A stretch of 64,000 nt of DNA, taken from contig NZ_CP095481.1 of assembly GCF_023023025.1 (NCBI RefSeq), positions 9,871,001 through 9,935,000 on the forward strand, written 5' to 3'. Positions 8,765 to 64,000 of the stretch are shown here, piece after piece. The position numbers and the translations under genes were made by a program. How positions within the stretch are numbered: position 1 is the first letter of the stretch; each line of letters starts with the position of its first letter. A model generated the notes under the pieces. The model had not been told where the DNA came from. It saw only the letters and a list, made by a program, of their open reading frames with translations, and ran no database searches. Source of the DNA: Amycolatopsis sp. WQ 127309. GTDB lineage: Bacteria > Actinomycetota > Actinomycetes > Mycobacteriales > Pseudonocardiaceae.

Positions 8765-8779
8765 TGCTAGACTGAGGAC

Positions 8780-43578: not shown

Positions 43579-44835
43579 TCAGGTGATCGGCTGGGCCGTG
43601 ATCGTCGTGGTCGGGGTGCAGGGCCGGTCCGCGTTCGTGCACGTCACCGCCATCGTGATCACCTGTCCGCCGGTCGCCGTCACCGGACCCGTCAGCGCGC
43701 GTGAGGTCTGGCGGACCGTCGCCAGGTCGTAGGCGGCGAGCTGCGTGCTGTCGAGGCTGATCCGCGCCGAACCCTGGTCGCCACCGGGGTTGGCCAGCTC
43801 CAAGGTGATCAGGCGGTAGGTCCGGCCGTTCGGGACGACGTAGGAGAACAGCTGCGGCCCGGACACCCCCGGGTAGGCCGTGCCGGTGACGGTGAGCCGC
43901 GTGCTCGTGGCGGCGGGGGTCAGCCGCACCGGTGGCGGCTGGCCTCCCACGCCCGCGGCCGTCGGGGTCGGGGCCGCCGGCGTGATCGACGGCGCCGACG
44001 ACGAGGCGGAACTCGTCGCGCCGGTGGACGAAACCGACGTGGACGCCGAGGACGACGTCGGCGGAATCGACGGCGATGGGCCGGCCATCGTCTTGGGGGC
44101 CGCGCGCAGCAGCGTGGACAGCAGCAGCGCGATCACCATGAGCGCCATGATCAGCAGCGAGAAGATGAGGAACGTCCGGCGTGGCAGCATCGGCCGCTGC
44201 TGGAACGTCGCGTTCAGGTCGATCGGGTCGGTCAGCTCGGACAGCACGGTCACGGTGAACGGCCACGCCCGGTCCGCGCCGCGCCAGAAGTACTTGCGCG
44301 GACGGGCACGCAGCTTCACGAACGTGGTCGTGCCCGGCCGCAGCACCGGCACCTTCGGCCGGCCGGTGAAGGTGAGCTTGTCGTCGGGGTCGGCGGCGCG
44401 CACGTCGATGGAGTGCTCGACGTTGCCGAGGTTGTCCACCGCCAGTGTGTGCTTTCCCTTGCGGGCGCCCGAGGAGTTGACCGGCACGAGCTCCGCGCTG
44501 AGCTCGGCGTACTCGGTGACGGTGACCAGGCCCTCCTGGACCACCGAGCCGCCGGGGTCCTCGCGGGAAGCGACCTGCACCGCGAACGGGTACTCACCCG
44601 TCAGCACCTCGTGCCCGCGCGGCGGCGAGAACGTCAGCTCGACGGTGACCTCCTGGGCGGGCATCAGGTTGGCCCGCTCGGGCTTCACCGCCGTCCAGTC
44701 GTGCGCCTCGCCGAGCACGGCGAAGCGGAACTGGTCCACCACCGCGCCGTTGTTGCGGATCAGCACGTGGCACCGCGCGTCACTGCCCGGATCGACGGTC
44801 ACCGCCGCGACCCGCAGCACCGCGCCGACTCCCAT
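43579..44835 (-). CDS. Membrane protein of the contractile injection cluster, Ig-like N-domain, single TM
   Basis: 418 aa. Residues 1-200 have the look of two beta-sandwich domains of the COG1470 (NEW1/Ig-like) type: VTVDPGSDARCHVLIRNNGA, then NLMPAQEVTVELTFSPPRGH and HTLAVDNLGNVEHSIDVRA. A single transmembrane segment lies at 221-243, followed by a Ser/Pro/Ala/Thr-rich linker (about 250-300) and a C-terminal beta-rich domain. There is no signal peptide, so the N-domain is cytoplasmic and the C-domain probably outside. It is the last gene of the injection operon, 31 bp after another membrane protein. It may help attach the particle to the membrane; this is inference. Confidence 0.75.
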   Translation of the reverse strand: MGVGAVLRVAAVTVDPGSDARCHVLIRNNGAVVDQFRFAVLGEAHDWTAVKPERANLMPAQEVTVELTFSPPRGHEVLTGEYPFAVQVASREDPGGSVVQEGLVTVTEYAELSAELVPVNSSGARKGKHTLAVDNLGNVEHSIDVRAADPDDKLTFTGRPKVPVLRPGTTTFVKLRARPRKYFWRGADRAWPFTVTVLSELTDPIDLNATFQQRPMLPRRTFLIFSLLIMALMVIALLLSTLLRAAPKTMAGPSPSIPPTSSSASTSVSSTGATSSASSSAPSITPAAPTPTAAGVGGQPPPVRLTPAATSTRLTVTGTAYPGVSGPQLFSYVVPNGRTYRLITLELANPGGDQGSARISLDSTQLAAYDLATVRQTSRALTGPVTATGGQVITMAVTCTNADRPCTPTTTITAQPIT

Positions 44836-44866
44836 GCCCGCCTCCTCCCGTCCGTGGTTGCCGCGC

Positions 44867-46903
44867 TCACTGCAGCGCGAAGAACTCGATCTCCGACATC
44901 GCGACGTTCTGGCTGCTCTGCCCGTCGAAGATCTCCGCCACCTCGATCGTCGCCGAGTTGACCAGCGTGGTGTTCTTCATCGACAGCGTCTGCTGGCCCG
45001 CCACGTCCTGCGGCAGCAGGTTTTCCGTGACGCCGTTGGACAGCGTCACCTTGAGGATCGACGGCCGCGCGTCCGCCACGAAGGCGTCGTGGGCCCCGGA
45101 GTAGAGGATGATGTTGCGCAGCAACCGGGTCTCCCCGAAGGTGAAGGTGATCCGCGGGTGCTTGCGCGAGTCCCACGGCGTGGCCCAGTAGGTGTCGGTG
45201 TAGGTGTCGGCGGCCGCCCCGGGCGGGTGCCCGGTGATCATCGTCGTCGAGGTCACGGTCACCGGGTGCACCGGTTCCAGCTGCGGAGTCACCTTGCGGT
45301 AGAGCGCGGAGATGTTGTCCACCACGGTGTTGCGCATCGGCGGGTAGAACGCGTACCCCAGCCCGAGCAGCAGCAACGCGATGCCGAACACCACGCGCAC
45401 CTTGCGGAACGCCGAGTACGTCAGCCACTTGCGATGTCCACCGGTGCCCTTCTGCCCGGGCCGGGTGCCGATCTGGTAAGCCTTCGGACGCCGCTTCAGC
45501 TTCGCGAGCAGCCGCCGCCACCAGACGGGCCGGACCACCGCGGCCCGGTCCAGGGACTCGCCGCACCTGCTGCAGAAGTGCCGGCTCGGCACGTTGCCCT
45601 CGCCGCAGACCCCGCAGACCAGGTCCCCGAGTTCCAGCCGTCGTGTCGGTTTGGACTTGACGATGGCCCGGGTCTTGATCTGCACGGGCTGCGGCAGCAG
45701 CTCGGGCGGTTCCTGCTCGGCGGCCAGCGCCCGACCCACCACGGGCTGTGCCAGCGCGGCGACCAGAGCGGCCCGCTCGGCCCCCTCCGCCGACACGACA
45801 ACGGCGACCGGCGCCCCCGTCGCGGGCGGCGGTGTCGCTGCCGCCGCGGCGGAACGCGGCGGAGCGGGAGGCGCGGCCGGGCCGGACGCACCGGACGACG
45901 CGGCGGCGGCAGCGGGCACCGGCGCGGCAGCACCGGGCGGTGGCGGTGGCGCGGCACCAGTGCCCGACGCGGCGCCGGCACCGGCCGACGCCGCGCCGAC
46001 CGCAGCCCTGCCGGGCGGTGGCGGCGGCACGGCACCAGCGCCTGACGCGGCACTAACACCGACCGACACCGCGCCCGGCGCGGCACCAGCACCGGCCGAC
46101 GCCGCGACCGGTGCGGCAGCGCCGGGGGGTGGCGGCGGAGGCGAAGCCACCGCGCCAGCCGCAGCCTTGCCGGGCGGTGGCGGCGGAGTGGCCGCTTTCC
46201 CAGGAGCAGGCGGCGGTGCCGCTGACGCTCCCGGCGGAGGCGGCGGAGCAGCCGCCTTGCCCGGCGGCGGAGGTGCCGACGGCGAGGACTCTCCCGCCGT
46301 TCCCGGCGCAGGCGACGGCGCGGCAGCCTTCTCTGGGGGTGGAGGCGGCGCGGCCGCACCGGGCGGCGGGGGCGGTGCCGCGGCCTTACCGGGAGGCGGC
46401 GGGGGTGCCGCGGCCTTGCCCGGCGATGGCGGGGGTACCGCTGACGCTCCCGGTGGCGGAGGAGCCGCCGCACGACCCGGGGGTGGAGGCGGTGCGGCCG
46501 CCTTCCCCGGCGGCGGTGGCGGCGGCGCCGCCGCTGCCTTTCCCGGCGGCGGTGGCGGCGGCGGTGGCGGTGGCGGTGGCGGTGCGGCCGCCTTTCCAGG
46601 AGGCGGTGGGGTGCCCGCGCCGGAAGCCGGCGCCGGTTCCGAGTCGAACGTCTCCACTCCGGCCGCCACCGCGGCCGGGCGGGGTTCCAGCCGGTACGTC
46701 GGCACCAGCCGGCGCAGCCTCGTCTTGACCCGGCGCCACCACGACGGCCTCGCCTCCGGCGGTGGCGGGGGCTCCTCGACGATCACGATCTCCGGCTCCG
46801 CCACCGTGATCCGGTCACCGTTCCACTCCAGGAACTTCCCGCAGTCGCCGCAGAAGGCGGACTCGTCATCGTTGTGGTTGCCGCACATCCGGCAGACGAT
46901 CAC
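44867..46903 (-). CDS. Zinc-ribbon, proline-rich, single-TM protein with discoidin-like C-domain
   Basis: 678 aa. An N-terminal zinc ribbon (CRMCGNHNDDESAFCGDC) is followed by a very long Pro/Ala/Gly low-complexity part (about 100-400, repeated P(n)GKAAAP). A second zinc ribbon (CGVCGEGNVPSRHFCSRC, about 427-452), a basic segment, one TM helix (about 502-521) and an extracytoplasmic beta-sandwich (about 545-678, WDSRKHPRITFTFGETRLLR; SEIEFFAL) complete it. The C-domain resembles F5/8-type (discoidin-like) glycan-binding folds. The GTG start overlaps the tail-protein-I stop. The architecture recalls the membrane partner described for Streptomyces injection systems (CisA), but identity was not tested. 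Confidence 0.8.
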   Translation of the reverse strand: MIVCRMCGNHNDDESAFCGDCGKFLEWNGDRITVAEPEIVIVEEPPPPPEARPSWWRRVKTRLRRLVPTYRLEPRPAAVAAGVETFDSEPAPASGAGTPPPPGKAAAPPPPPPPPPPPPPGKAAAAPPPPPPGKAAAPPPPPGRAAAPPPPGASAVPPPSPGKAAAPPPPPGKAAAPPPPPGAAAPPPPPEKAAAPSPAPGTAGESSPSAPPPPGKAAAPPPPPGASAAPPPAPGKAATPPPPPGKAAAGAVASPPPPPPGAAAPVAASAGAGAAPGAVSVGVSAASGAGAVPPPPPGRAAVGAASAGAGAASGTGAAPPPPPGAAAPVPAAAAASSGASGPAAPPAPPRSAAAAATPPPATGAPVAVVVSAEGAERAALVAALAQPVVGRALAAEQEPPELLPQPVQIKTRAIVKSKPTRRLELGDLVCGVCGEGNVPSRHFCSRCGESLDRAAVVRPVWWRRLLAKLKRRPKAYQIGTRPGQKGTGGHRKWLTYSAFRKVRVVFGIALLLLGLGYAFYPPMRNTVVDNISALYRKVTPQLEPVHPVTVTSTTMITGHPPGAAADTYTDTYWATPWDSRKHPRITFTFGETRLLRNIILYSGAHDAFVADARPSILKVTLSNGVTENLLPQDVAGQQTLSMKNTTLVNSATIEVAEIFDGQSSQNVAMSEIEFFALQ

Positions 46904-47439
46904 GGCTCGATCACCTCCACGCTGTGCAGTACTCCCACGGGTTTCGCGGCCCGGATGACCGCCTCGACGGCGGCTTTCGAGGTCGGGGACCCCGGCGCGG
47001 GAGTCACGATCACCCGCACCCAGTGCTCGACGTCGGTGGGCGGCTCGGGCCGGGGCCGCACCGACCACGACACGCCGCCGCTCTCCTCGATGCGCACCTC
47101 GCCGTCCACCACCAGCTCCAGGTGCCGGCGCAGCCCGGCCATCGTGCCGCGCATCCGGTACAGCGCGACCGCCTCGGCGATCACCGCCCGCTGCGCGGCC
47201 ATCGACCAGTTCTCGTCCAGCAGCACGCCGAACCAGCCGGCCAGCCAGCGGGTGAAGTCCTCCGGTGCCAGCAACGGGTCCACGTACGCGCCCAGGCAGT
47301 CCACCGTGCCGATCACCGGCGCGAGCACCTGGTCGAAGCCCTCGGTCCAGCGCACCGCGAACGGGTCGTCGGCGAAGATCGACGGCAGCAGGCCGATCAG
47401 CGGGTGCGGGGTGGCCAGCTCGGCGATTCCGGCGCGCAT
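46900..47439 (-). CDS. Phage tail protein I (gpI-like) of the baseplate
   Basis: 179 aa. It has the pattern of the TIGR02242/gpI family: LIGLLPSIFADDPFAVRWTE, FDQVLAPVIGTVDCLGAYVD, PEDFTRWLAGWFGVLLDENW, and the following YRMRGTMAGLRRHLELVV. In P2-like phages gpI joins gpJ at the baseplate edge, and in eCIS loci it lies at the same place. The ATG overlaps the gpJ stop by one base (TGATG). The next gene, a membrane protein, overlaps its stop by 4 nt. Confidence 0.88.
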   Translation of the reverse strand: MRAGIAELATPHPLIGLLPSIFADDPFAVRWTEGFDQVLAPVIGTVDCLGAYVDPLLAPEDFTRWLAGWFGVLLDENWSMAAQRAVIAEAVALYRMRGTMAGLRRHLELVVDGEVRIEESGGVSWSVRPRPEPPTDVEHWVRVIVTPAPGSPTSKAAVEAVIRAAKPVGVLHSVEVIEP

Positions 47440-49391
47440 CAGGACTTCTCCACCCGGACCTGGTGGTCGAACGAGAACACCAGCCCGCCCGCGCCGACCG
47501 GGACGCGATCGGCTTCCGAGCCGCGCTCGCCGGTGACCGGGTTGGCGCCGTAGACCCGCACGTCCTCGACGACGTCGACGCCCTGCACCGACTGCAGCAG
47601 CGCGAACAGCTCACCGCGGACGACGCGCCTGCTGAACGGCCAGCCGGTGCGCTCGGGCCCGCCGGTCAGCGGGTTGAGGAACGCGTAGAGCTCGTCCAGC
47701 GCGCGACGGCGGATCTCCTCGGTGTCGAGCCGGGTCCGGGCCACCAGCCGGGCGACGACGGTGATGCCGCGGTAGCGCGGGGGCTCCACGAGCACCCGCG
47801 TGCCGACCAGGCGCATCTCCTCCAGCCGGTCGGCGACGCGCCGCAGGGTGTCCTCGGCGGGCACGAGGTCGGCGAACTCGAGCCGGTGGCCGGTGGCCGA
47901 CGCCGCGGGCACCACCATCACCTTCACCGCGCCGTGCGGGACGTCGTCCTCGCCGGCGGTCAGGCAGTGGATCCGCGCGACCTCCGGCGCGGCTTCGCGG
48001 GCGATGGCCTCGTAGTCCTCGGCGGTGACGGCGCGGCTGCGCGTGCGCAGCATGATCGGCCCGCGCCGCTTGGCCTGCTCCAGCGTCTCCCCGTCCACCC
48101 CGCCCTGGGCGGGTTCGAGGTTCTCCACCCCGGCGATGAACGGGATCGACGCGCGCAGCGTGTTGACGGCCCGCACGGCGACGTTGCCCTGGCCACCGCC
48201 GCCGCTGTGGTAGCGGCGCATCCGCACCGGCGCGCCGCGTTGCGGGACGGCCCCGTACTGGCGCAGGGTCCCGTCCTCCTGCCGCACGGCCGGGCCGAAC
48301 TCGACCTCCCCGGACACCGGGTCCAGCAGGTAGTGCCGGTCGTCGGCGGTGCTGGCCGCGAAGTGCTCCACCGGCGTCCACTCGCGCCAGGCGCCGTCCT
48401 CGCCCACTTCGAGCGACGACGGGTTCCGCCCGGCGAGCACCGGCACCCGGCTGAGCGAAAACCGTTGCCCGGGAACGCCTTCGGCGAGCCCCAGTTCCTC
48501 GCCTTCGATGATCTCGCCGTGCATCGCCGGCACGGTCGCCCCGACGGTGCTGGCCACCAGGGTGCGGATCACCGGCGAGGAGCTGTAGGCGGCCTGGCCG
48601 GGCAGCGGCTCGATCACCCGCACCCGCAGCCAGGCGGCGCGCTGCTCGCCGATGGCGCTGGTCTCGTGCCCGTCGGGCACGTGCACGACGATCCGCCCGG
48701 GCCGGTTGAGCCCGCCCGTCTCGTCGGTGCTGACCCGGCACTCCCGCCAGTCCTGCGCCGACCACGCCTCCCACACCAGTGGCGGGTGCTTCGGGTTGAC
48801 GCCGATGCCCTCGGTCCGCCCGTCGAAGTCCAGCCGCACGGCGCAGCCCGGCACCGGTTCGGCGAACCCGACCAGCAGCGCGTCGCCGAGCACGGGCGGG
48901 TCGGAGAAAGCGGCGAACTCCTGGCCCAGCTCGACCGACGGCGTCAAGTCCTCCGTGGACACCTTGCCCGTGCGCAGCCGCCGCACCGCGCCGAGCCGGG
49001 CGGGCACCACGGTCAGGTCGCGCAGGGTCGCGAAGACCGTCGGTTCCTCGGTTTCGGTGCGGGTGGTGGAGACCTTCGTGCCGGTGCGCAGCACCATCCG
49101 GCTGCGCGCGGGGGCGGTCAGCCAGAAGGTGACCGGGACCGTCGCCGGGGTGGGCGGCAGCATGCGCAGCCCGAGCAGCTCGAGGAACTTCACGTAGAGC
49201 CGGTCGGGCACCCGGTTGAGCCGGTAGGTCAGCTGCTCGGTCATGAAGGCGAAGGTCTCGATGAGCGTCACGCCGGGGTCGGAGACGTTGTGGTCCGTCC
49301 ACTCCGGACAGCGGCGCTGCACGAACCGCTTCGCCTCGTCCACCAGGTCCTGGAAGCGGCGGTCGTCGAGATTCGGTGCGGGCAGGGCCAT
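47439..49391 (-). CDS. Baseplate assembly protein, gpJ/Afp11-like
   Basis: 650 aa. It belongs to the putative baseplate assembly family (TIGR02243; gpJ/gp6-related). Typical elements are RRCPEWTDHNVSDPGVTLIE near residue 30, TYRLNRVPDRLYVKFLELLG, the central VPQRGAPVRMRRYHSGGGGQ followed by GNVAVRAVNTL, and TRSRAVTAEDYEAIAREAAP. It forms the wedge that links the central hub to the sheath and drives the conformational switch on firing. It starts 3 bp after the gp25-like gene and overlaps tail protein I by one base. The length fits eCIS homologues. Confidence 0.93.
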   Translation of the reverse strand: MALPAPNLDDRRFQDLVDEAKRFVQRRCPEWTDHNVSDPGVTLIETFAFMTEQLTYRLNRVPDRLYVKFLELLGLRMLPPTPATVPVTFWLTAPARSRMVLRTGTKVSTTRTETEEPTVFATLRDLTVVPARLGAVRRLRTGKVSTEDLTPSVELGQEFAAFSDPPVLGDALLVGFAEPVPGCAVRLDFDGRTEGIGVNPKHPPLVWEAWSAQDWRECRVSTDETGGLNRPGRIVVHVPDGHETSAIGEQRAAWLRVRVIEPLPGQAAYSSSPVIRTLVASTVGATVPAMHGEIIEGEELGLAEGVPGQRFSLSRVPVLAGRNPSSLEVGEDGAWREWTPVEHFAASTADDRHYLLDPVSGEVEFGPAVRQEDGTLRQYGAVPQRGAPVRMRRYHSGGGGQGNVAVRAVNTLRASIPFIAGVENLEPAQGGVDGETLEQAKRRGPIMLRTRSRAVTAEDYEAIAREAAPEVARIHCLTAGEDDVPHGAVKVMVVPAASATGHRLEFADLVPAEDTLRRVADRLEEMRLVGTRVLVEPPRYRGITVVARLVARTRLDTEEIRRRALDELYAFLNPLTGGPERTGWPFSRRVVRGELFALLQSVQGVDVVEDVRVYGANPVTGERGSEADRVPVGAGGLVFSFDHQVRVEKS

Positions 49392-49393
49392 CG

Positions 49394-49798: not shown

Positions 49799-49810
49799 CG
49801 AAGGTGCCTC

Positions 49811-52959: not shown

Positions 52960-52960
52960 G

Positions 52961-53494: not shown

Positions 53495-53537
53495 GGCGCA
53501 CCTCCTCCTGTCCGGTGTGGACGTCCTGAGTGGACGG

Positions 53538-54035: not shown

Positions 54036-54045
54036 GCGGCGCTCC

Positions 54046-57000
54046 TCAGCGTTGGTCCATCAGGCGGCCGGATCGTTCCCGCTGCACCAGCACGTCCCAG
54101 CGCAGCCTGCGGTGCAGCCGTTCGTAGAGCTTCCCGCTCAGTTCTTCGATGTCGTCGCTCTCGTCGAGGTCCAGCCACCGGCGTGGTGGCTGCTCTCCGA
54201 TGCGTTCGGTCAGCAGCCGGTCGTGCTCGTCCTGGGTGTCGACGGCCGGTGCGGGTGTCCCCGGCGCGGGTGCGCCCGCCGGTGGCTCCACATCGGACAG
54301 GAACCGCGCGAGGCTTTCCGCGGAGGTGAAGTCGACCCGCCGCCCACCGTCGCGTTCGGCGGCGACCAGCTCGGCCACGCCGGCGCCCGGCGTCTCCGCG
54401 GCCCGCTGGGTGGCCGCGGCCGCCGGCGCTTCCGCCGTGGCCGGTTCCGGTGACGCGGGCGCGGGCGGCCGGAGGTGCCGCAGCGGAACGCCGGACCCAC
54501 CGGCGACCCACTGTTCGATGGCCAGGGCTTCCGCTTCCAGCGCCCGCCCACCCGGGCTGGTCTCCTCCGGCACGCGCCCGTCGAGCACCCGCTGCTGGAC
54601 GACGTGGGCCAGCTCGTGGGCAAGGGTGGCCGAGGCGGGCATCCGGTCGAGCGGCCCCCATTCGGCGGGCACGTGCACCACCCCGGCCGTGGTGTAGGCC
54701 CGGGCGTGCAGCAGCCCGGCGGAGGCCGAGACACCGGCACCACGGCGCACCTGAAGGTCACCCAGGTCGGGCAGCCCGGCTTGGTGCAGTCTCGCGGCGA
54801 GCGCGACGGGCACGCGTTCGACTTCGACGGAGCCGAGCGGTGTCCCGGAGCCGGGGGACGGCGGTTCCGGGCTTCCGGCGGGCGCCGGGAAGGCCGGGAA
54901 GCCGGCGGGGGCCGGGAGCGGGGTGCTGCCGGCGGGTGCCGGCGGCCCCGCACTTCCGTCCGGCGCCCACGGCCCCGGATTTCCGGCGAGCGGCGCCCGC
55001 GGTCTCGCGCCCACAGCCGGCGGCAAGGGTCCGGCGGGTGCCGGCAGCCCCGCAGTTCCGGCCGGTGCCCCTGGCCCCGGATTTCCGGCCGACGGTCCTG
55101 CAGGCGCCGGCAGCCCGGGGAACCTCGCAGACGCCGATGGTCCCGTGCTTCCGGCAGGCGTCTGCCGGGTGGCGCTTTCGACCGGAGCCGACGACCGCGG
55201 GTTCCCGGCCGAGGGTCCCGTCGATCCGGCGGGTACCGAAGGTCCCGCACTTCCCGTCGACGAGCCTGGGTTCCCGGCGGCCGACGGCAGTCCGGCGCCG
55301 CCGGCAGGTGCCGGCGGTCCCAGCGTTCCGGCGGACGCCACCGTGTCGGGCAGTACGCGCCGGCCCAGCAGGCTGGGCCGGCTCACCAGGGCGTCGAGCG
55401 CCACAGGTACGCGCTCGACGGAGTCCGCCGGCAGCCCCGCCCCTCCAGCCGACTCCGGCAGCCCTGCGCTTCTCTCGGACTCCGGCAGCCCCACGTTTCC
55501 TGCGGACTCCGGCAGCCCTGCATTTCCGGCGGACTCCGGCAGCCCCACGTTTCCTGCGGACTCCGGCAGCCCTGCATTTCCGGCGGACTCCGGCAGCCCC
55601 ACGTTTCCTGCGGACTCCGGCAGCCCTGCATTTCCGGCGGACTCCGGCAGCCCCACGTTTCCTGCGGACTCCGGCAGCCCTGCATTTCCGGCGGACTCCG
55701 GCAGCCCCACGTTTCCTGCGGACTCCGGCATCCCTGCATTTCCGGCGGACTCCGGCAGCCCCACGTTTCCTGCGGACTCCGGCAGCCCTGCATTTCCGGC
55801 GGACTCCGGCAGCCCTGCGTTTCCGGCGTCTGCCGGCGGCTCCGGCAAGACCGCCCGGGCCGCCGGCGAAGCCGGCACCTGATCGAAGGTGCCCAGGCTC
55901 CCGGCAGGTACTGCGTCCTCGGCCGGCACCGGCGAGTCGGGCAACCCGTCCCGACGCGACCGGCCGACCGGCGTGCCCGGCACCCATCCGCCGGAATCCG
56001 TTTCTCCCGCCGGCAACGGTGATGCCGTGTTCCCGGACGGCACCGCCCGCCCGGGCAGGCTGCCCCGGGGCGCCCGGGTGGTCAGCACCACCGGGACGTG
56101 CTCGCCGGCGTCCACATATCCCGTGGACGCCGGTGCGGCGGTTTCGGCAGCCGTCCCCGGCCGGTCGGACAGCTTGCCGGAGTGCGGCAGAGCGGTGGCC
56201 GCGTTGTCGCCGGCGTCCGGGGCTCCCGTTCCGTCAGACGCCACCCCTGTCGGCCGTCCGGGCAGGTCACCCTCGTGCAACAGAGTCGCGGGTGCGTACT
56301 CGCCGATGTCCGGCGCTCCCGTTCCGTCAGCCATCACCGTGATCCGCCCGCCGGGCAGGTCACCCCGGTGCAACAGGGTCGCGGGTGCGTACTCGCCGGT
56401 GTCCGGCGCTGCCGTGCCGTCGGCGGTCACCGTGATCGGCCCGTCGAGCAGGTCACCCTGGTGAAACAGGGTCGCGGGTGCGTGCTCGGTGGTGTCCGTT
56501 GCCACCGCGCTGTCAGCCATCGTCGGTACCGGCTGCGCGTGCTCGCCGGTGTCCGCCACCGGTACCGATCCGCTCTGTTGCGGCGGGACAGGCCGGCTGG
56601 TGTCCGGCTCTCCCGTGCCGGAGGCAGCCGTGACCACGCGGGCAGGGAGGTCGCCCTGGTGCAACCGGGCGGCGAACGCAGCGGTGTCCGCCTGCGGAAC
56701 CGCGCTCTCGGCCGGCGTCGGTCGGCCGGTCGGGCGACGCGGCCCCGGACGCTCCGTCGCTCCGTCGCGCGAGGAGGCGGACGGTGCGTCGGCGACTGCA
56801 GGCGTCTGCGGCATGCCGCCGGGCTCGGGCTGGGTGGTTGCCGGCCGGTGCCGCAGCTTCGTGGTCGCCGGCTCGTCGAGGTTTTGCGGCCGCGCCGGTG
56901 CTTCCGGGGTGGGGGCCGCTTCCGGCAGGCGGGTCTCGAGCGTGGCCGGCGCGGTCTTCGCAACGAGGGAACCGTCGACGGGAAGTTCGCCGCGACCCGG

Positions 57001-59043
57001 GGCGGGGTGCGTTTCCTGGTCCGGCACGGCGGTCTCTTCTTCGACCGGGGTGACGTCGGGTGGTGGTGATTCGTCGGAGTCCGCGTCGTCCTCCCGGGCC
57101 GCGCGCAGCCCGCGCCGCCGGCTTTCGGCCAGGCTCGCCCGGCGGCGCGGAGGCAGCGGGACGTCGGGGATTTCGCTGCCGGGCAACGGACGCGTCGCCG
57201 GCGGGGTCCACGAAGCGAGCACGTTCTGCTCCGGCGTGGAGGTCACGCCGAGCAACCGGTCCCGTTCCAGAGTCATCTCCCGCAACAGTGCGGGCGTGCG
57301 GTGCGGAACCTCGGGCACGCGCGGTTCAGCCACATACGCCGGTGCCGCGGCGGTCAAGGGCGCCGTCGGCCGCGACGCGGGGGGAACATCCCGGACAGGC
57401 AGCCGCCGAGCGGTCGCGGGCAGCCGGGGCCGGGCCTTCGCGGCTGGGTGCCGCAGTTCGGTCCCGGAGACGGGCTGCCCGGCATCGATCCCCATCGCGA
57501 TCGGTTCGAGGCCGGCGGTGATCCGGGTCCCGGCGCCTGACGTGCTCGTGACCCGGACCGCGGCGTCGGGACCCGCACCGGCGCCGATGCCGGTCCCGGC
57601 CTCGGCGGTGCCGGTCCCGGTCCTGACCTCGGCAGAGCCGGAGCCAAGGTCGGTTTCGGTGCGGGTGCCGGCCTCGGGACCAGTGCCGGTCTCGGCTCCG
57701 GCTTCGGTGCCGCTCCCGGTCTCGGTTCCGGCCTCGGTGCCGCTCCCGGCCTCGGTGCCGCTCCCGGCCTCGGTGCCGGTGCCGGCCTCGGTGCCGGTGC
57801 CGGCCTCGGACGTAGCTCTCCCACCGGCTTCGGCGGTGGTCCCGGCTGGGGTTTCGGACCCGGTCCTGGCATCGGTTCTTGTCTCGGCCGGGCCGGTGGT
57901 GCCGGACTCGGCGGCTCGGGTCCCGGCCGGCCCTCCCGCACCGGCCCCGGGTGCGGAATCGGCCGTGTGCGTGAGCGCGGACTCGGTTCCGGCGCGGCCC
58001 TGGCCGCCGGCCGGAGCGAGCGGCAACCGCGGTTCAGGCCCGGCGGCCGGCAGTCCGGGATCGGTCACGCCGAAGAGCGAACCCGAACCGGGCTGGACGA
58101 ACGGGAGTCCGAGAGCGGTCACGTCGGCCGGCGAACCGGCAACCGGTACCCGCACAACGGATCCGGCGGCCGGCGATCCCCCGCCGGCATCTCCGGGCGA
58201 CGGCATCACCTCTCCGGCCGATGACCCGGCAGGCATCCCCGTCCCCGGCTCGGCAGCCGGCCGCTCGGCCACGAGCAGCTCCGGCTCCGCCCCACCGGAA
58301 GACGACCCGGTCCCGTGAGCCGGAACTCCGGCACCGGGCAACCCGGCTGCCGGTGCGTTGCCCACGCGCGATCCACCGGCCCCGGCAAGGGGTAAGCCCT
58401 CGCGGGCTCCCGTGACCGACCGTCCCCGCCCCGCAGCGGTCCCGGCTCCACCGGTCTTGGCGGCAGGCCACCCGGCACCGGCCCGGCCACCCGGGCCGGT
58501 CGCCGACCATCCGGGGTCGGTCGCCGGCCGTCCGGAGTCGGCCGCCGGCCGTCCGGCCCCGGTCGCCGGCCGTCCGGCCCCGGTCGCCGACCATCCGGCC
58601 CCGGTCGCCGACCATCCGGAGTCGGCCGCCGGCTGTCCGGGGCCGAGCGCAGCGGGCGATCCCGGTTCGGATGCCCGCACCCCCGGCAACGGGAGCCGGG
58701 TCTCCTCGGGGACCACCCGGAGCAGGCCGGTGACCTGTCCCGCCGGCGCCGGGCCGGCCGCGAACCCGGCCCGGTCCGTCAGGTTGGGCTCGACCGCCGC
58801 CCAGGAGGTGGTCATGTCCACCGTCAACGGGGGGTGCGGCGGGATCACCGGCCGCAAGGGCGGGACGCGTCGCCACGCCGTGCCGGTCGCTCTGGCCGGG
58901 CGCACTGCTTCGGCCACCGGGCCGGGCGCGACCACCGGACCGGCCACGACCGCCGGTGAGTCCACATCGGACGAATCCACAGTGGACTCATCCGCCGTGG
59001 CTCGGGCACGGCGTCGGCGGAACGGCCAGCTCGGCATCGTCAT
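54046..59043 (-). CDS. Giant disordered DUF4157 (eCIS core) protein
   Basis: 1665 aa, far longer than usual DUF4157 proteins. Residues about 1-1440 are low-complexity and presumably disordered, rich in Pro, Gly, Ala, Ser, Thr and Glu, with several internal repeat blocks including a perfect 54-bp array (residues about 1077-1184). The eCIS-core domain is near the C-terminus (about 1440-1510) and contains ASATLAHELAHVVQQR, an intact HExxH zinc-protease motif at about 1474. In other loci this domain marks eCIS clusters and is usually N-terminal. The ATG overlaps the upstream small gene (ATGA). It could be a processed structural, cargo or release factor; its role is not known. Confidence 0.88.
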   Translation of the reverse strand: MTMPSWPFRRRRARATADESTVDSSDVDSPAVVAGPVVAPGPVAEAVRPARATGTAWRRVPPLRPVIPPHPPLTVDMTTSWAAVEPNLTDRAGFAAGPAPAGQVTGLLRVVPEETRLPLPGVRASEPGSPAALGPGQPAADSGWSATGAGWSATGAGRPATGAGRPAADSGRPATDPGWSATGPGGRAGAGWPAAKTGGAGTAAGRGRSVTGAREGLPLAGAGGSRVGNAPAAGLPGAGVPAHGTGSSSGGAEPELLVAERPAAEPGTGMPAGSSAGEVMPSPGDAGGGSPAAGSVVRVPVAGSPADVTALGLPFVQPGSGSLFGVTDPGLPAAGPEPRLPLAPAGGQGRAGTESALTHTADSAPGAGAGGPAGTRAAESGTTGPAETRTDARTGSETPAGTTAEAGGRATSEAGTGTEAGTGTEAGSGTEAGSGTEAGTETGSGTEAGAETGTGPEAGTRTETDLGSGSAEVRTGTGTAEAGTGIGAGAGPDAAVRVTSTSGAGTRITAGLEPIAMGIDAGQPVSGTELRHPAAKARPRLPATARRLPVRDVPPASRPTAPLTAAAPAYVAEPRVPEVPHRTPALLREMTLERDRLLGVTSTPEQNVLASWTPPATRPLPGSEIPDVPLPPRRRASLAESRRRGLRAAREDDADSDESPPPDVTPVEEETAVPDQETHPAPGRGELPVDGSLVAKTAPATLETRLPEAAPTPEAPARPQNLDEPATTKLRHRPATTQPEPGGMPQTPAVADAPSASSRDGATERPGPRRPTGRPTPAESAVPQADTAAFAARLHQGDLPARVVTAASGTGEPDTSRPVPPQQSGSVPVADTGEHAQPVPTMADSAVATDTTEHAPATLFHQGDLLDGPITVTADGTAAPDTGEYAPATLLHRGDLPGGRITVMADGTGAPDIGEYAPATLLHEGDLPGRPTGVASDGTGAPDAGDNAATALPHSGKLSDRPGTAAETAAPASTGYVDAGEHVPVVLTTRAPRGSLPGRAVPSGNTASPLPAGETDSGGWVPGTPVGRSRRDGLPDSPVPAEDAVPAGSLGTFDQVPASPAARAVLPEPPADAGNAGLPESAGNAGLPESAGNVGLPESAGNAGMPESAGNVGLPESAGNAGLPESAGNVGLPESAGNAGLPESAGNVGLPESAGNAGLPESAGNVGLPESAGNAGLPESAGNVGLPESERSAGLPESAGGAGLPADSVERVPVALDALVSRPSLLGRRVLPDTVASAGTLGPPAPAGGAGLPSAAGNPGSSTGSAGPSVPAGSTGPSAGNPRSSAPVESATRQTPAGSTGPSASARFPGLPAPAGPSAGNPGPGAPAGTAGLPAPAGPLPPAVGARPRAPLAGNPGPWAPDGSAGPPAPAGSTPLPAPAGFPAFPAPAGSPEPPSPGSGTPLGSVEVERVPVALAARLHQAGLPDLGDLQVRRGAGVSASAGLLHARAYTTAGVVHVPAEWGPLDRMPASATLAHELAHVVQQRVLDGRVPEETSPGGRALEAEALAIEQWVAGGSGVPLRHLRPPAPASPEPATAEAPAAAATQRAAETPGAGVAELVAAERDGGRRVDFTSAESLARFLSDVEPPAGAPAPGTPAPAVDTQDEHDRLLTERIGEQPPRRWLDLDESDDIEELSGKLYERLHRRLRWDVLVQRERSGRLMDQR
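55490..55813. repeat. Six 54-bp tandem repeats inside the DUF4157 gene
   Basis: Six almost identical 54-bp units encode two alternating 9-residue blocks, GNAGLPESA and GNVGLPESA, in frame. One unit carries a single base change that gives AGMPESA. Degenerate copies continue on both sides (about 55436-55840). Near-identity at silent positions points to recent expansion or ongoing homogenisation, so copy number probably varies between strains. Confidence 0.92.
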
Positions 59044-59231
59044 CCCTCCCAGCCGGCGAACGCGCCGGACAGCTCTTGGTCACCGCCGAGTGCGGTGTTG
59101 ATGCGGCCTATCTCCTCGATGACCCGGATGCGGCTGCGGTGGTCGAGTTCCAGGATCGAGTCGAACGACCAGTGCAGGTAGTAGGCGATGTAGACGATCT
59201 CCTGCCACAGCCGGTCGTCCGGTGCGCTCAC
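59040..59231 (-). CDS. Small conserved tail-cluster protein (DUF6760-like)
   Basis: 63 aa: DDRLWQEIVYIAYYLHWSFD then SILELDHRSRIRVIEEIGRI. Helical, with a pattern (Trp, then IAYYLHW and a LDHRxRxRV(I)EEI) that I associate with small proteins placed after the baseplate-chaperone gene in contractile tail clusters. GTG start and 4-nt overlaps on both sides fix its ends. It might be an assembly chaperone, like the small tail-assembly proteins of phages. Confidence 0.75.
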   Translation of the reverse strand: MSAPDDRLWQEIVYIAYYLHWSFDSILELDHRSRIRVIEEIGRINTALGGDQELSGAFAGWEG

Positions 59232-59635
59232 CCGCCGGGCTCCTCGGACTCGTCGCCGGCGGCGATGTCGACCACGAAGCGGTGGCCGCAGCCCGGGCAG
59301 CGGACGTCGGCTTCGGTGTGGCCGTGCTGGTTGATGCGCCGGTACAGGTCCTGCAGGAACGCCAGGTCCGAGGCGAACAGGTGCTCGATGACGAACCGGT
59401 CCACCGGGGCGACCGTGCCGAGCGAGGTCAGCGTCCGGCAGATCAGGTGCACCGACAGGTACGCCGGGTTCTGCCGCACCTGCGGGTCGGCGTGCGCGGT
59501 GAGCTCGTCCTTCGCGGTCGCCAGGCGCATCGCGCCGCTGCGGTGCACCTGGCCCCGCTCGTCGACGTACCCGCGGGGCAGGGTGAACGGGTACTCCGTG
59601 CGCAGCCCGGGCCCGTCCACCGTCGACGCCGTCAT
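59228..59635 (-). CDS. T4-type baseplate hub assembly chaperone-like protein
   Basis: 135 aa. The pattern LRTEYPFTLPRGYVDERGQV, SGAMRLATAKDELTAHADPQ, QNPAYLSVHLICRTLTSLGT and LFASDLAFLQDLYRRIN is that of the T4_baseplate (PF12322-type) hub-assembly chaperone family. The C-terminus has a single CPGC pair and two His residues (VRCPGCGHRF), a possible metal site. The ATG at 59635 overlaps the tube gene stop; a longer frame upstream lies inside the tube gene and is not used. Confidence 0.85.
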   Translation of the reverse strand: MTASTVDGPGLRTEYPFTLPRGYVDERGQVHRSGAMRLATAKDELTAHADPQVRQNPAYLSVHLICRTLTSLGTVAPVDRFVIEHLFASDLAFLQDLYRRINQHGHTEADVRCPGCGHRFVVDIAAGDESEEPGG

Positions 59636-60123: not shown

Positions 60124-60151
60124 GGGTGACCTCTTTCAGGGGTGTCGGGGA

Positions 60152-61684
60152 TCATTCGTCGAGTGCTGCGCCCTGCGAGAACTGCGAGATGCGGAAGATC
60201 ACGAACTCGGCCGGCTTCACCGGCGCCACCCCGATCTCGACGACGAGGTTGCCTTCGTCACGGCTTTCCGGCGGGTTGTTCTCCGCGTCGCACTTGACGA
60301 AGAACGCCTCCTCCGGCGTCCGGCCCATCAGCGCGCCGCTGCGCCACACCTGCTGGAGGAACGCCCCGACCACGCGCTGGACGCTCTCCCACAGGTAGTG
60401 GTCGTTCGGCTCGAACACCACCCAGTTGGTGCCGGCGAGAATGGACTCCTCGATGAAGTTGAACAGCCGGCGCACGTTGAGGTAACGCCACTCCGGGTCG
60501 CTCGACAGCGTTCGCGCGCCCCAGATCCGGATGCCCTGCGCGGGGAAGGACCGCAGGCAGTTGACCCCGAGCGGGTTGAGCAGTTCCTGCTCACCCTTGG
60601 TGATCGCGGTCTGCAACGCGATCGCGCCGCGGATCACCTCGTTGGCCGGCGCCTTGTGCACCCCGCGGGCCTGGTCGCTGCGCGCCCACACGCCGGCGAC
60701 GTGCCCGCTCGGCGGCAGCGTCACCTTGGCGCCCTGGGTGGGGTCCATGGTCTGCACCCACGGCCAGTACAGCGTCGCGTACTTGGAGTCGTAGCCGGCG
60801 AAGTCGGTGCGCCACCGGATGAGCTGCTGGGCGTTGAGGCCCGGGGGCGGGTCGAGGATGGCCACCCGGTCCGACATCAGCTCGCAGTGGGCGATCATCG
60901 CGAGCTGGACGCCCTTGACGTCCTCTTCGGACAGCAGCCCGCGCTGGTAGGCCGACATCAGGTCGGGTACCGCGACCATGGTGATCTCGTCGATGGCCTC
61001 GAAGCTGCTGATGCCGGTGCGCGAGTCGGTGTCGCCGACGTAGCTTTCGGAGCCGACGCGGGCGGGCACCGTCAGGGTGCCGCCACGCAGCTCCACGGTG
61101 GCGCCCTTCTTCGGGGCGGCGACCACGGGGCGCTGCGGGTCCTCCAGCGCGACGAGCTTGGACCGCTTGGCCAGCACGGTGGCGACGTTCGCCGCGCCGC
61201 GCCGCGTCGTCAGGTTGTCGAAGGTCTCCTCGACCTTGCCGTCCTTGCGCACCTCGAGCTTGAACGTGTCCTCGCCGGGCTGCGACGCCTCCGACACCGC
61301 GACGCTCAGCCCGGTCGCCTCACCGCCGGTGATCGCACGCAGTTCCAGCGCGGGCACGGAGTCGTCGGAGTCGGCGGGGATCGCGGCCTTGGCGTAGGTC
61401 TCCTGCGCCTGGTCGCCGTCGGGCTCGGGCAGCCGCAGGACGAAGGCCGAGCCGCCGCCGTTGAGGAAGAACCCGTAGATCGAGTGGGCCAGGTAGGTGC
61501 CTTCGACGAAGCCGCCGAAGATCCGGGTGTACTGCGTCCAGTTGGTGACCAGCGTGGGCTCGGACACCGGGCCCTTTTCGGCGAAGCCGACGAAGCCGGC
61601 GACCGAGGTGCCGACGCCTTCGATCGGCCGCGAGCCGGACGAGACTTCCTCGACGTACACGCCGGGTGACAGATAGGTCGGCAT
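60152..61684 (-). CDS. Contractile tail sheath protein (Afp2/3-like)
   Basis: 510 aa, the normal length for a sheath subunit. N-terminus TYLSPGVYVEEVSSGSRPIE then GVGTSVAGFVGFAEKGP is the classical sheath start. The C-terminal conserved half includes GIRIWGARTLSSDPEWRYLN, RRLFNFIEESILAGTNWVVF then EPNDHYLWE, and GRTPEEAFFVKCDAENNPPE. It is the only sheath gene in the window, and the first gene of the minus-strand operon, with an AGGGAG site. It contracts to drive the tube into the target. Confidence 0.96.
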   Translation of the reverse strand: MPTYLSPGVYVEEVSSGSRPIEGVGTSVAGFVGFAEKGPVSEPTLVTNWTQYTRIFGGFVEGTYLAHSIYGFFLNGGGSAFVLRLPEPDGDQAQETYAKAAIPADSDDSVPALELRAITGGEATGLSVAVSEASQPGEDTFKLEVRKDGKVEETFDNLTTRRGAANVATVLAKRSKLVALEDPQRPVVAAPKKGATVELRGGTLTVPARVGSESYVGDTDSRTGISSFEAIDEITMVAVPDLMSAYQRGLLSEEDVKGVQLAMIAHCELMSDRVAILDPPPGLNAQQLIRWRTDFAGYDSKYATLYWPWVQTMDPTQGAKVTLPPSGHVAGVWARSDQARGVHKAPANEVIRGAIALQTAITKGEQELLNPLGVNCLRSFPAQGIRIWGARTLSSDPEWRYLNVRRLFNFIEESILAGTNWVVFEPNDHYLWESVQRVVGAFLQQVWRSGALMGRTPEEAFFVKCDAENNPPESRDEGNLVVEIGVAPVKPAEFVIFRISQFSQGAALDE

Positions 61685-61869
61685 CGCATCTCCCTGCTGG
61701 GTGGGGACCGGTGAGCGCTTTGAAGCTTCGCAGCGGCCGCCGGTGATCGAGAGCGGGCGAGGGGCGCTCGCCCGGACACGCCGGAGTGCCTCCAGGGGCG
61801 AGCGGAGCGGCCCCTGGAGCGGCCCGCGACAGCACCTCCCGGACGCACCCGGCGGCCGAAACTGGGGGC
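61685..61869. promoter_or_regulatory. Divergent promoter region of the injection-system operons
   Basis: The 185-bp gap between the sheath gene and the DUF4255 gene is the only sizeable non-coding space inside the cluster, so both operons are probably started here. No clear -35/-10 pair or long dyad could be seen; a short GAAGCTTC palindrome is present near 61720. Control must be judged from experiments. Confidence 0.5.
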
Positions 61870-62511
61870 GTGCTGCACGATGTGGACTCCGCCCTGCGGA
61901 CCTGGCTGTTCGCGGAACTGCCCGCGGACGTGGAGATCGCGCTCGAAGGTCCCGGCGCGGTCACCGTCACCGCGGGACGTCCGGTGCTGGGCCTGTTCCT
62001 CTACGAGATCGGCGAGGAGCTCGACGGCCAGGCCGGGGCCGGTATCCGGCTGCGGGGACCGGACGGGCGGGTCACCGGCACCGTCCTGCCGGTCCGGCGT
62101 TACCGCCTGACCTACCTCGTGACGGCGTGGGCGACCACCGTGGCCGCCGAACACGACCTGCTCGGCGCGGTGCTGGCCGCCCACGCCGGGCGTCCGGTAC
62201 TCACCCCGGAACTGCTGCCCGGACGGCTGGGCGAGCTGGCCGAACCGCTGCCGATCCGACTGGGCCGGCACCGGGCCGGCGGCGGCGAGCACGACCTGTG
62301 GCACGCCCTCGGCGTGCCGCTGCGCACCGCGCTGGACCTGACCGTCACCGCGCCGGTGGTGCCCACGCGGATCGAAGACCCGGCCCCGCCGGTGCACACG
62401 GTCGAGCTGGGCGTGCGCGACGAGCCGGCCGCGTCCGCGCCGCGCACCGGCCCCCGCTGGACCCGTACGTCCCGCACCGCCCCCGAACCCGACCCAGGAG
62501 AGCGACGATGA
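61870..62511 (+). CDS. DUF4255/Pvc16 N-terminal-domain tail terminator (Afp16-like)
   Basis: 213 aa. LHDVDSALRTWLFAELPADV and PVLGLFLYEIGEELDGQAGA then VRRYRLTYLVTAWA fit the DUF4255 family, which caps the distal end of eCIS tubes and sets particle length. The GTG at 61870 is chosen because homologues begin at this point; the frame is open further upstream. Its stop overlaps the next start (ATGA). It is divergent from the sheath gene. Confidence 0.88.
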   Translation: MLHDVDSALRTWLFAELPADVEIALEGPGAVTVTAGRPVLGLFLYEIGEELDGQAGAGIRLRGPDGRVTGTVLPVRRYRLTYLVTAWATTVAAEHDLLGAVLAAHAGRPVLTPELLPGRLGELAEPLPIRLGRHRAGGGEHDLWHALGVPLRTALDLTVTAPVVPTRIEDPAPPVHTVELGVRDEPAASAPRTGPRWTRTSRTAPEPDPGERR

Positions 62512-64000
62512 CCGCACCCGCCCCGTCGGACTGCGCGTGGCTGCGCAGCAACCCGGCGACCATCCCGCACAGCACGCCGAGTTCGTTCGCGAAGCTGCTG
62601 GGCGCCGACGACGTGTGGCGGCAGCTCTACCAGGAATGGCTGGTGGGAACGACTAACGGCGCGGCCAACGCCGCCCGCGTCGACTCCGCGCAGATCGGGG
62701 TGGACGAGCTGGTGCGCTGGTTCGCCCAGCTCGTCGCGGCCGGGTCCGCCGCGCAGAGCGATGCCGTCCCGGCCGTGGAGCTGAGCAAGCTGAGCCGCGG
62801 TGAGCAGGCCCTCGCCAAGGTCAACAAGGGAGCGCCCAGCAACAAGGACAAGTTCGAGTGCTTCCAGCGCGGGTACGCCGACAGCTTCCTCGCCGACATC
62901 GAGTCCGTCCGGGCCGTGCTGAAGGCCCGCACCGAGCAGCTGCGCGCCACGAAGGGCGCCGACGGCAAGTCCTTGTCGGCCAAGGAGGCCAAGGCCTTGG
63001 CCGGCAAGGAGGCCCAGCGGCTCACGCTGGCCAACGCGGCCCGCGCGCAGGTCGAAGGCAAGGAAGCGGGCCTGGACGTCAACGTCGGGCTGCTGGTGCA
63101 GGTGCAGATCGAGCAGTACCAGGCCGGCACGCTGATGCTCGTCGACAAGGCCCTGCAGGAACTCGAAGAGACCAAGTGGGACGACGAGGACGGCAAGTTC
63201 AAGAACAAGGCGATCAAGGACTTGTCGGCGGCCACCTCGGCCGTGTTCACCGCCTCCGCCGCGCTCAAGGTGTTCAGCCGCGAAGTCGTCGCGATGACGC
63301 CGGAGAAGCGGGCCGAGCCGGCCACCGAGGCGCGCCTGTTCGACCTGATGATCGGGTTCACCGAGGCGGTCGGGGTGCAGGGCCGCGCGATGACCAGCGC
63401 GGGCGAGCAGGTCGCCGCCTGGGCCAAGTGGGCGACCAAGAACCTGCTCAAGGAGAACTTCAACACCATCTACCCCAAGCTGGGCGGCGCGCTGCTCGTG
63501 CTGCGCACCGGCATCTCGATCGCCCAGGTGACCCTCGACTTCTTCCCGCCGTTCAACGCGATCGGCACCGCGCTCGGGGTCGCCGACCAGGCGCTGGAGT
63601 TCGGCCTCACCGAGCTGGTCGTCTGGCGGGACAAGCAGGACCCGGAGATCCAGAAGAAGTACGCGGGCCAGGAGTTCGTCACGCCGTGGGAGGAGCTGAG
63701 CACCGCGGCCAAGGCCGTCTCCGGGTTCTCCGAGGGCAAGAAGCTGTTGTGGGACAACCTGAAGGACTACACCGAGGGTCTGCCGGCCAAGGCGGTCAAG
63801 AAGGTGGCGACGATGACCGTGGACGCCGTCGCCACGGTCACCGACATGTCACCGGAGCGGCAGTACCAGCTCCAGGCCGGCACCGAAGGCGTCATCGACT
63901 TCCTGGACAGCTCCAAGGAGACGATCCTCAGCCTCGGCGGGGTCGAAGCGACCCTCTCGGTGACCGGCGCGATCGCGAAGGCCGCCGGCGACTCGAGCCC
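62508..64000 (+). CDS. Large unknown protein of the injection cluster, partial (candidate cargo or tape measure)
   Basis: 497 codons are open up to the window edge. The ATG overlaps the DUF4255 stop, so it is in the same operon. The sequence is mostly helical and rich in Ala, Lys, Glu and Leu (for example SKEAKALAGKEAQRLTLANA, LVDKALQELEETKWDDEDGK). One long hydrophobic or amphipathic stretch (LGGALLVLRTGISIAQVTLD, then FNAIGTALGVADQALEFGL) lies at about residues 325-375. It has no Walker motifs in the visible part, so it is not the AAA+ protein that often follows DUF4255. No family was recognised. A toxin cargo, tape measure or assembly factor are all open. Confidence 0.7.
   Translation, partial: MTAPAPSDCAWLRSNPATIPHSTPSSFAKLLGADDVWRQLYQEWLVGTTNGAANAARVDSAQIGVDELVRWFAQLVAAGSAAQSDAVPAVELSKLSRGEQALAKVNKGAPSNKDKFECFQRGYADSFLADIESVRAVLKARTEQLRATKGADGKSLSAKEAKALAGKEAQRLTLANAARAQVEGKEAGLDVNVGLLVQVQIEQYQAGTLMLVDKALQELEETKWDDEDGKFKNKAIKDLSAATSAVFTASAALKVFSREVVAMTPEKRAEPATEARLFDLMIGFTEAVGVQGRAMTSAGEQVAAWAKWATKNLLKENFNTIYPKLGGALLVLRTGISIAQVTLDFFPPFNAIGTALGVADQALEFGLTELVVWRDKQDPEIQKKYAGQEFVTPWEELSTAAKAVSGFSEGKKLLWDNLKDYTEGLPAKAVKKVATMTVDAVATVTDMSPERQYQLQAGTEGVIDFLDSSKETILSLGGVEATLSVTGAIAKAAGDSS

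Follow-up and report, generated by a model that had tools for sequence, protein, structure and literature searches.

How could a contractile injection system be assembled and loaded without the AAA+ ATPase (Cis15) that has been reported as invariable in such systems (PMC10020575) and is not part of their operational definition (PMC8213781)? This question is raised by a locus of the soil bacterium Amycolatopsis sp. WQ 127309, in bases 9871001-9935000 of its 11.13 Mb single-contig genome; this whole stretch of 64,000 nucleotides is called the window here, and positions are counted from its first base. The locus holds a complete gene set for an extracellular contractile injection system (eCIS), with 14 minus-strand genes from 61684 to 43579 and a divergent operon headed by Pvc16. 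What appears to be new, judged from the genes, is an eCIS without Cis15 that carries a candidate ruler-and-core-domain protein. Published work is cited by PubMed Central (PMC) number, and statements about it refer to excerpts of each article.

A contractile injection system lineage without Cis15

The gene content groups the locus with the eCIS of actinomycetes. Ten core genes (sheath, three tube-like proteins, LysM hub, spike, gp25, J, I and Pvc16) are clustered, including tail protein I (Afp12) and Pvc16 (Afp16), in line with the operational definition of at least ten core genes together with at least one of Afp12, 13, 14 or 16 (PMC8213781); our tally used Pfam and NCBIfam profiles and not those of that paper. 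The sheath is 56-59% identical to those of loci with records named Streptomyces, and the sheath tree and gene order agree with type IId, a label that rests on kinship to Streptomyces loci and not on the dbeCIS reference set. The sheath gene and the DUF4157 (PF13699) gene are each single copies in the genome. Terminase PF03354, the sole terminase family searched, had no match genome-wide; ten flanking or neighbouring proteins matched no structural, packaging or integration family in PHROGs; and a scan of part of the genes of the region recognised none for a fibre or for lysis. A prophage or tailocin identity was rejected, with no head, packaging, fibre or lysis gene recognised among these.

These results support an actinomycete eCIS akin to type IId of Streptomyces, and not a prophage, as read from the genes. 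An earlier note, made from the sequence of the window, had reached the same identification, and most of its description stands: profile matches confirmed the genes it named (sheath, tube, hub, spike, LysM adaptor, gp25, J, I, DUF4157 and DUF4255; the LysM adaptor by matches below Pfam cut-offs only), the tight coupling it saw is borne out by gaps of -4 to 43 bases across the 14 genes, the lack of head, packaging and integration genes agrees with the searches above, and the divergent operon does begin with a terminator gene (Pvc16_N). Its two membrane proteins at the operon end are a CisA homologue and an Ig-like protein with a single transmembrane (TM) helix.

The same note had expected an AAA+ ATPase, a tape measure and a fibre beyond position 64000, and here it was not upheld. 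We searched with the Cis15 protein of a Streptomyces griseofuscus locus (L050) and found no tblastn match in 120 kilobases (kb) around the locus, including 56 kb past the window edge. All 66 AAA candidates scored in the genome (expectation value, E<=1e-3) had generic AAA domains only, and the best match to Cis15 covered 182 of 687 amino acids (aa) at 32% identity. The best tape-measure candidate lies inside the window, at 54046-59043, and none of the three genes at 62508-69826 was recognised as a fibre gene, with no genome-wide search of fibre profiles made. A 764-aa LuxR/NTPase regulator (70027-72321) was considered as a substitute ATPase and rejected, being found in 1/80 related loci.

These 80 related loci fall into two main layouts. 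In group B, the Streptomyces-like layout, an AAA+ ATPase gene lies close to Pvc16 and the sheath; the window falls in group A, together with Actinokineospora, Lentzea, Labedaea, Actinophytocola, Spirilliplanes, some Kitasatospora and others. The Cis15 query matched 54 of the 80, L015 only weakly. The 26 loci without a match were 15 of group A (L006-L014, L016-L021) and 11 Streptomyces loci, in which Pvc16 also lay outside the fetched stretch. Actinokineospora bangkokensis has two eCIS clusters (L006, L013), both of the ATPase-less type.

The same division was seen among 200 genomes of the family to which the window belongs, in which 96 sheath matches were sorted by score into three classes, cut by eye at gaps in the score list, and the five best Cis15 candidates per genome were scored. 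Cis15 lay within 20 kb of 0/31 class-1 sheath genes, that of the window included (a few of them on short contigs), of 52/53 class-2, Streptomyces-like, sheaths (the one miss at a contig start) and of 1/12 distant class-3 sheaths. Seventeen of the 19 genomes with class-1 sheaths only had no Cis15-like match anywhere (E<=1e-40), and the remaining two had distant matches only, elsewhere in the genome.

On a quick LG+G4 tree of 113 sheath rows, 99 with an ATPase state and fourteen without, a single change accounts for ATPase presence, and it lies on a branch with a Shimodaira-Hasegawa-like approximate likelihood-ratio (SH-aLRT) value of 97. The states were set by hand, two (L129 and L133) as present though the ATPase is beyond their fetched stretches, and some group-A states rest on a flank of about 10 kb alone. 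The root of the tree is open, so that loss of Cis15 and its ancestral absence both fit. Named records among the ATPase-less rows are from Pseudonocardiaceae, Streptomycetaceae, Micromonosporaceae, Streptosporangiaceae and Ilumatobacteraceae. Judged by these genes, the locus belongs to an eCIS lineage without Cis15. The layout that the earlier note called distinctive goes with this lineage, a reason outside its view. Set against the published statement that the ATPase is invariable (PMC10020575), the lineage suggests that Cis15 is dispensable for assembly and presumably for loading.

Missing Cis15 could also mark a different way of life or decay. R-tailocins and phages have no Cis15 (PMC12210884), and a secreted LAxTG surface protein stands in the divergent operon of 7/7 members of the subclade that holds the window; both would suit a weapon set free by lysis to attack other cells, either a truly extracellular eCIS without fibres or a tailocin-like one. 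We consider such a weapon unlikely: the genes scanned included no recognisable fibre or lysis gene, a CisA homologue occupies the usual fibre position, Pvc16_N and DUF4157 are marks of eCIS, and the nearest characterised relatives are cytoplasmic (PMC10066040). Nor is it at all probable that the locus is a decaying eCIS that lost loading and function. Loss of Cis15 and a minisatellite expansion in one long gene would fit decay, but all structural frames are open and closely packed, and the ATPase-less state is found on one branch spanning five actinomycete families, not as scattered losses.

A candidate tape measure with a built-in DUF4157 domain

In nearly every locus with a full stretch we found one long frame between DUF6760 and the tube initiators (none in L059 and L137), and we call its product the slot protein. 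Its gene lies directly 3' of a pair formed by a phrog_508 chaperone and DUF6760, and before the tube initiators and hub, i.e. in the position of a tape measure; in the window, 4-base overlaps join the chaperone gene to DUF6760 and DUF6760 to the slot gene. The position after the tail-assembly chaperone belongs to the tape measure in tailed phages, whose chaperones of this kind serve that protein. The phrog_508 match was found in 6/6 relatives of the chaperone-like protein scanned, from both groups (E 9.5e-7 to 8.8e-4). A DUF6760 start giving the 4-base overlap is available in 99/101 loci, a count in which the start nearest the chaperone stop was chosen, which favours short overlaps, and eight loci are second copies. 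A ribosomal frameshift between chaperone and DUF6760 was dropped, as the junction in the window has no slippery heptamer.

The slot protein of the window is the DUF4157 protein, unusually long at 1665 aa. It is built from a W/R-rich N-terminal box (N-box, e.g. RWPFRRR), a long A/P/G-rich linker, DUF4157 (residues 1412-1485, with HELAH at residue 1476) and a conserved C-terminal box (C-box); a second conserved segment, Trp/LPPL, was read by eye. With a disorder proxy (a simple scale over 41-residue stretches), 69% of it scores as disordered, whereas 78 other predicted proteins of the region have a median of 0 and reach at most 34%. The N-box was found in 28/35 group-A and 43/52 group-B slot proteins, and in 15/1315 (group A) and 54/2167 (group B) control stretches of the same proteins. 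These and the following counts by group omit L015 (masked Ns), L031 (start miscalled, Ns) and L023, L027 and L028 (ATPase plus DUF4157 in the slot protein), and count once each of eight loci that duplicate earlier ones.

The ends of the protein connect the two groups. A C-box profile made from 41 group-B proteins recovered 15 of a further 19 slot proteins with E<1e-3 (16 from group A plus those of the ATPase-bearing L023, L027 and L028), and the reverse profile matched 41/41 group-B proteins, with best shuffled decoys at 0.29 and 1.2. Hence, the DUF4157 protein of the window and the protein without a name in Streptomyces clusters very probably belong to one family. A search with the C-terminal part of the latter found 27 proteins, 26 named hypothetical protein and one nameless, and none has a Pfam domain.

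Streptomyces clusters have been said to lack a tape measure gene (PMC10066040, PMC10286715, PMC12237407), and all analysed Streptomyces particles are of one length (PMC12237407). Since the slot protein is mostly disordered and has no named family, a tape measure could have been overlooked. We propose tentatively, with a little less than even confidence, that type IId eCIS do have a tape measure, the slot protein, and that in one lineage the ruler and its core-domain cargo are a single chain, with the loading ATPase dispensable. Among the open PMC papers searched, none reports by title or abstract the slot protein as tape measure or an ATPase-less eCIS of this kind; the dbeCIS survey (Chen 2019) is outside that coverage and may hold an earlier mention.

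The DUF4157-type HExxH motif was found in 33/35 group-A and 0/52 group-B slot proteins, counted by motif and not by profile. Many group-B loci, seen by eye and uncounted, have a separate DUF4157 protein near the ATPase. In Streptomyces lividans such a separate protein, Sle2, co-elutes with a tube initiator (PMC13277306), and Pvc15, which corresponds to Cis15 in Photorhabdus, loads cargo (PMC11495950). The simplest reading would be that the core domain of group A forms part of a chain taken into the tube as the latter is assembled; hence, ATP-driven loading might not be needed.

Several points weigh against this picture. Slot proteins differ widely in length: the 35 of group A have 380 to 1687 aa (median 776) and the 52 of group B 557 to 1198 aa (median 1030), and even Streptomyces murinus entries differ (1012 to 1083 aa). 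The slot proteins of the window and L050 have no PHROGs match, and that of the window has no Pfam tape-measure match, though disordered sequences are hard to match. Three metagenome AAA+ loci (L023, L027 and L028) have both Cis15 and DUF4157 in the slot protein, L019 and L021 have neither Cis15 nor the slot motif, and DUF4157 in the slot protein needs 5 changes on the sheath tree, on which its pairing with ATPase absence amounts to only one independent pair. In Streptomyces coelicolor, where the slot gene would be sco4249 by counting genes from sco4253, the excerpted particle proteomics named only sco4242, sco4256 and sco4251 among proteins of unknown role (PMC10020575), and the nine proteins of the cryo-electron microscopy model, as excerpted, do not include the slot protein (PMC12237407). 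Lumen density is mostly gone in the sco4256-4258 mutant (PMC10066040); hence, most of that density need not be a ruler.

Two observations bear on length itself. A 54-base tandem repeat inside the linker part of the slot gene is a likely origin of length differences among strains. In nine paired group-B loci the slot length has a coefficient of variation of 0.12, compared to 0.34 for the approximate inner part of CisA, which is suggestive only of a length constraint. If the slot protein is the ruler, S. murinus strains with slot proteins of 1012-1083 aa should make particles of differing length, and the length control of Streptomyces particles, which have one fixed length (PMC12237407, PMC10066040), would become testable by a single gene deletion.

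The slot protein might instead be a cargo scaffold or adaptor, in which DUF4157 and the C-box are fixed at the tube initiators and the disordered part loads or plugs the lumen, with length set otherwise. We regard this as possible, short of probable. DUF4157 marks cargo and cargo adaptors elsewhere (PMC8213781, PMC13277306), the tape-measure-related effector Tme of Streptomyces davawensis carries an N-terminal DUF4157 (PMC11126660), and slot length in group A varies more than fourfold. However, group-B slot proteins retain the ends and the position without DUF4157, and no toxin domain was found in the slot protein of the window (Pfam, PHROGs). It is also preceded by the gene of a tail-assembly chaperone, a kind of protein that in phages serves the tape measure.

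CisA, a proposed route to firing, and the neighbouring genes

Next to Cis12 lies the gene of a protein with two zinc ribbons, a Pro-rich stretch, one TM helix and a discoidin/CBM32-like C-terminal domain. We found clear profile homology to the gene at the same position in other actinomycetes, Streptomyces included, and the protein has the features by which CisA is recognised (a single TM helix, a place after Cis12, a disordered inner part and a conserved outer domain). With tblastn, 26 of 27 group-A loci were matched, the fetched stretch of the remaining one being short. A 915-aa open reading frame at 44867-47614 was set aside as an over-long call for the 678-aa gene (44867-46903). In one ATPase-less sub-branch (L108, L110, L116, L122, L123 and L124) the CisA match comes before tail protein I and not after it; the fetched stretch of L092 starts past its cisA, which in that sub-branch precedes tail protein I. 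ARAGORN called a tRNA-Trp at 46563-46657 on the plus strand, antisense within the coding part of cisA and probably a false positive.

The outer domain of CisA matches the glycan-binding discoidin family and fold. Against solved sequences the CisA profile found weak similarity only: six matches with E of 0.047 or more, among them a cyclic ADP-ribose hydrolase chain (E 0.06) over the outer domain. CisA is required for firing in S. coelicolor (PMC12237407). A discoidin/CBM32-type module offers a concrete guess at the firing signal, namely wall or surface glycans. The link to stress-triggered cell death that had been drawn earlier for this locus still leans on Streptomyces (PMC10066040, PMC10020575, PMC12237407), and the clear CisA homologue strengthens it.

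Taken together, we think it somewhat probable that the locus encodes a cytoplasmic, membrane-triggered eCIS without Cis15, assembled around the slot protein as ruler and core domain and fired via CisA. Its structural identity and the absence of the ATPase are read directly from the genes; we infer the tape-measure role, ATPase-free loading, glycan sensing and membrane-triggered self-killing. Growth of tube and sheath would start at the baseplate and proceed around the 1665-aa slot protein, whose solubility the tail-assembly chaperone and DUF6760 would maintain. At the baseplate end, the DUF4157 and C-box of the slot protein would bind the tube initiators; its disordered N-terminal part would extend through the lumen toward the Pvc16 cap, making it a tape measure with a built-in core domain. 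As the slot protein would be built in during assembly, we propose that its threading takes no ATPase. The assembled particle would float in the cytoplasm, the zinc-ribbon and Pro-rich inner part of CisA could contact the baseplate, and the outer discoidin-like domain could report on wall or surface glycans. Envelope stress would then let the contact between CisA and baseplate trigger firing through the cell's own membrane, and the hypha would be killed or permeabilised. Tempering this proposal, self-killing is known only in Streptomyces, whose ATPase is needed there for activity (PMC10020575), and both expression and particles are predicted from the genes alone.

The Ig-like protein gene lies 31 bases after cisA; its TM segment was read from sequence, and tblastn relatives were found in 49/80 eCIS loci. 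A promoter and terminator scan at this end of the operon found nothing. The divergent operon runs past the window edge at 64000 to about 69826 by gene calls, in the order Pvc16, an 897-aa protein, a 500-aa protein with a repeated segment and a 1023-aa secreted protein. The 897-aa protein has a helical N-half with hydrophobic stretches and a beta-rich C-half. It was matched in only 2/80 related loci (L006, L008), and a large database holds 5 such proteins, itself included. Its AlphaFold model is poor (mean predicted local distance difference test score 54), and a fold search with this model gave no match at E<=0.001. It is a rare and probably swapped cargo candidate, and its helical N-half merely resembles what is reported for Sle1.

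The 1023-aa secreted protein (66755-69826, outside the window) has DUF7507/CARDB/DUF11 domains and a C-terminal LAYTG with a TM tail. LAxTG relatives follow Pvc16, directly or after two genes, in six other subclade members (L006-L011), i.e. 7/7 with the window. A sortase-type surface protein tied to an intracellular system is a puzzling pairing. PAAR-like proteins were seen by eye directly after Pvc16 in the ATPase-less L016 (~8749-9246) and L020 (~8847-9236), and none was seen in the window. Also outside the window, near the divergent operon, are a lytic transglycosylase (SLT_2, 72656-73846), a peptidyl-arginine-deiminase-family protein (74868-75821) and a 211-aa GerE/LuxR-type regulator (73957-74592), the last with tblastn relatives in 49/80 eCIS loci and in 6/16 downstream stretches. 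In S. coelicolor the TTA-containing LuxR gene SCO4263 controls SCO4251-4253, the sheath gene included (PMC2000904).

Table 1. Features of the eCIS locus in window coordinates, with the matches behind each reading
Feature	Position	Strand	Evidence
Ig-like (Cep192/HYDIN-type) single-TM membrane protein, 418 aa	43579..44835	-	PF22067 E 7.8e-10
CisA homologue, 678 aa	44867..46903	-	4-base overlap with Cis12; profile homology
Tail protein I (Cis12), 179 aa	46900..47439	-	PF09684 E 9.9e-16
Baseplate J-like wedge (Cis11), 650 aa	47439..49391	-	TIGR02243 E 5e-153; PF04865 E 1.3e-13
gp25 baseplate wedge (Cis9), 134 aa	49394..49798	-	PF04965 E 9.3e-21
VgrG-like spike (Cis8), 771 aa	49811..52126	-	PF04717 E 9.9e-22; PF05954 E 2.5e-5, below cut-off
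LysM hub adaptor (Cis7-like), 278 aa	52123..52959	-	CIS_tube PF19266 E 2.3e-5 and LysM E 0.009, both below Pfam cut-offs
Third tube-like protein (Cis5/Cis1b-like tube initiator), 177 aa	52961..53494	-	TIGR02241 E 2.7e-20, above cut-off; CIS5_fam E 6.3e-8, below cut-off
Second tube-like protein (tube initiator candidate), 165 aa	53538..54035	-	PF06841 E 1.2e-20; TIGR02241 E 3.9e-16, just under cut-off; CIS5_fam E 5.9e-7, below cut-off
Slot protein, 1665 aa, candidate disordered tape measure with DUF4157	54046..59043	-	PF13699 E 2.5e-9, motifs, disorder proxy, position
54-base tandem repeat, 7.4 copies, 95% matches	55428..55828	-	inside slot-gene linker
DUF6760, 63 aa	59040..59231	-	PF20546 E 3.5e-9; 4-base overlap with each neighbour
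Tail-assembly-chaperone-like protein, 135 aa, C-terminal CxxC pair	59228..59635	-	phrog_508 E 1.8e-7
Inner tube (Cis1a), 163 aa	59632..60123	-	PF06841 E 2.3e-22
Sheath (Cis2), 510 aa	60152..61684	-	PF04984 E 9.2e-25; PF17482 E 1.1e-18; phrog_23 tail sheath E 6.7e-82
Pvc16_N/DUF4255 tail terminator (Cis16), first divergent gene	61870..62511	+	PF14065 E 2.4e-20
897-aa protein, candidate cargo	62508..64000, on to ~65201 outside the window	+	no family match

Comparison with characterised systems

The closest characterised systems are CIS-Sc of S. coelicolor (type IId, SCO4242-4260) and SLP of S. lividans, which we compared via related Streptomyces loci. Shared with these are the order sheath, tube, chaperone-like protein, DUF6760, slot protein, tube initiator, hub, spike, gp25, J, I and CisA, the Pvc16 cap, and nearby Ig-TM and LuxR genes. 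Unlike them, the window has no AAA+ ATPase, its DUF4157 lies within the slot protein and not in a separate protein, and its Pvc16 gene is divergent and adjoins the sheath. It also has an extra tube-like gene, whereas in group B both tube-initiator queries match one place. The CisA homologue resembles SCO4242, with which it was compared by description, in its position after Cis12, its disordered inner part, its one TM helix and its conserved outer domain. It differs in a longer Pro-rich inner part and in an outer domain of discoidin type, in contrast to the solute-binding-domain similarity described for CisA (PMC12237407).

Like Tme of S. davawensis and Sle1 and Sle2 of S. lividans, the slot protein would link DUF4157 to a tube initiator or spike (PMC11126660, PMC13277306), and with Tme it shares relatedness to tape measures, here as a candidate, and large disordered parts (PMC11126660). 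In contrast to all three, as excerpted, its DUF4157 is near the C-terminus with no nuclease or toxin domain after it, and its gene stands in the core operon after the tail-assembly chaperone. With Afp14 and Pvc14, the tape measures of type I eCIS, the slot protein would share the proposed role of setting length, and it differs from them in being mostly disordered and matching no tape-measure family; the Afp14 sequence itself lies outside this comparison.

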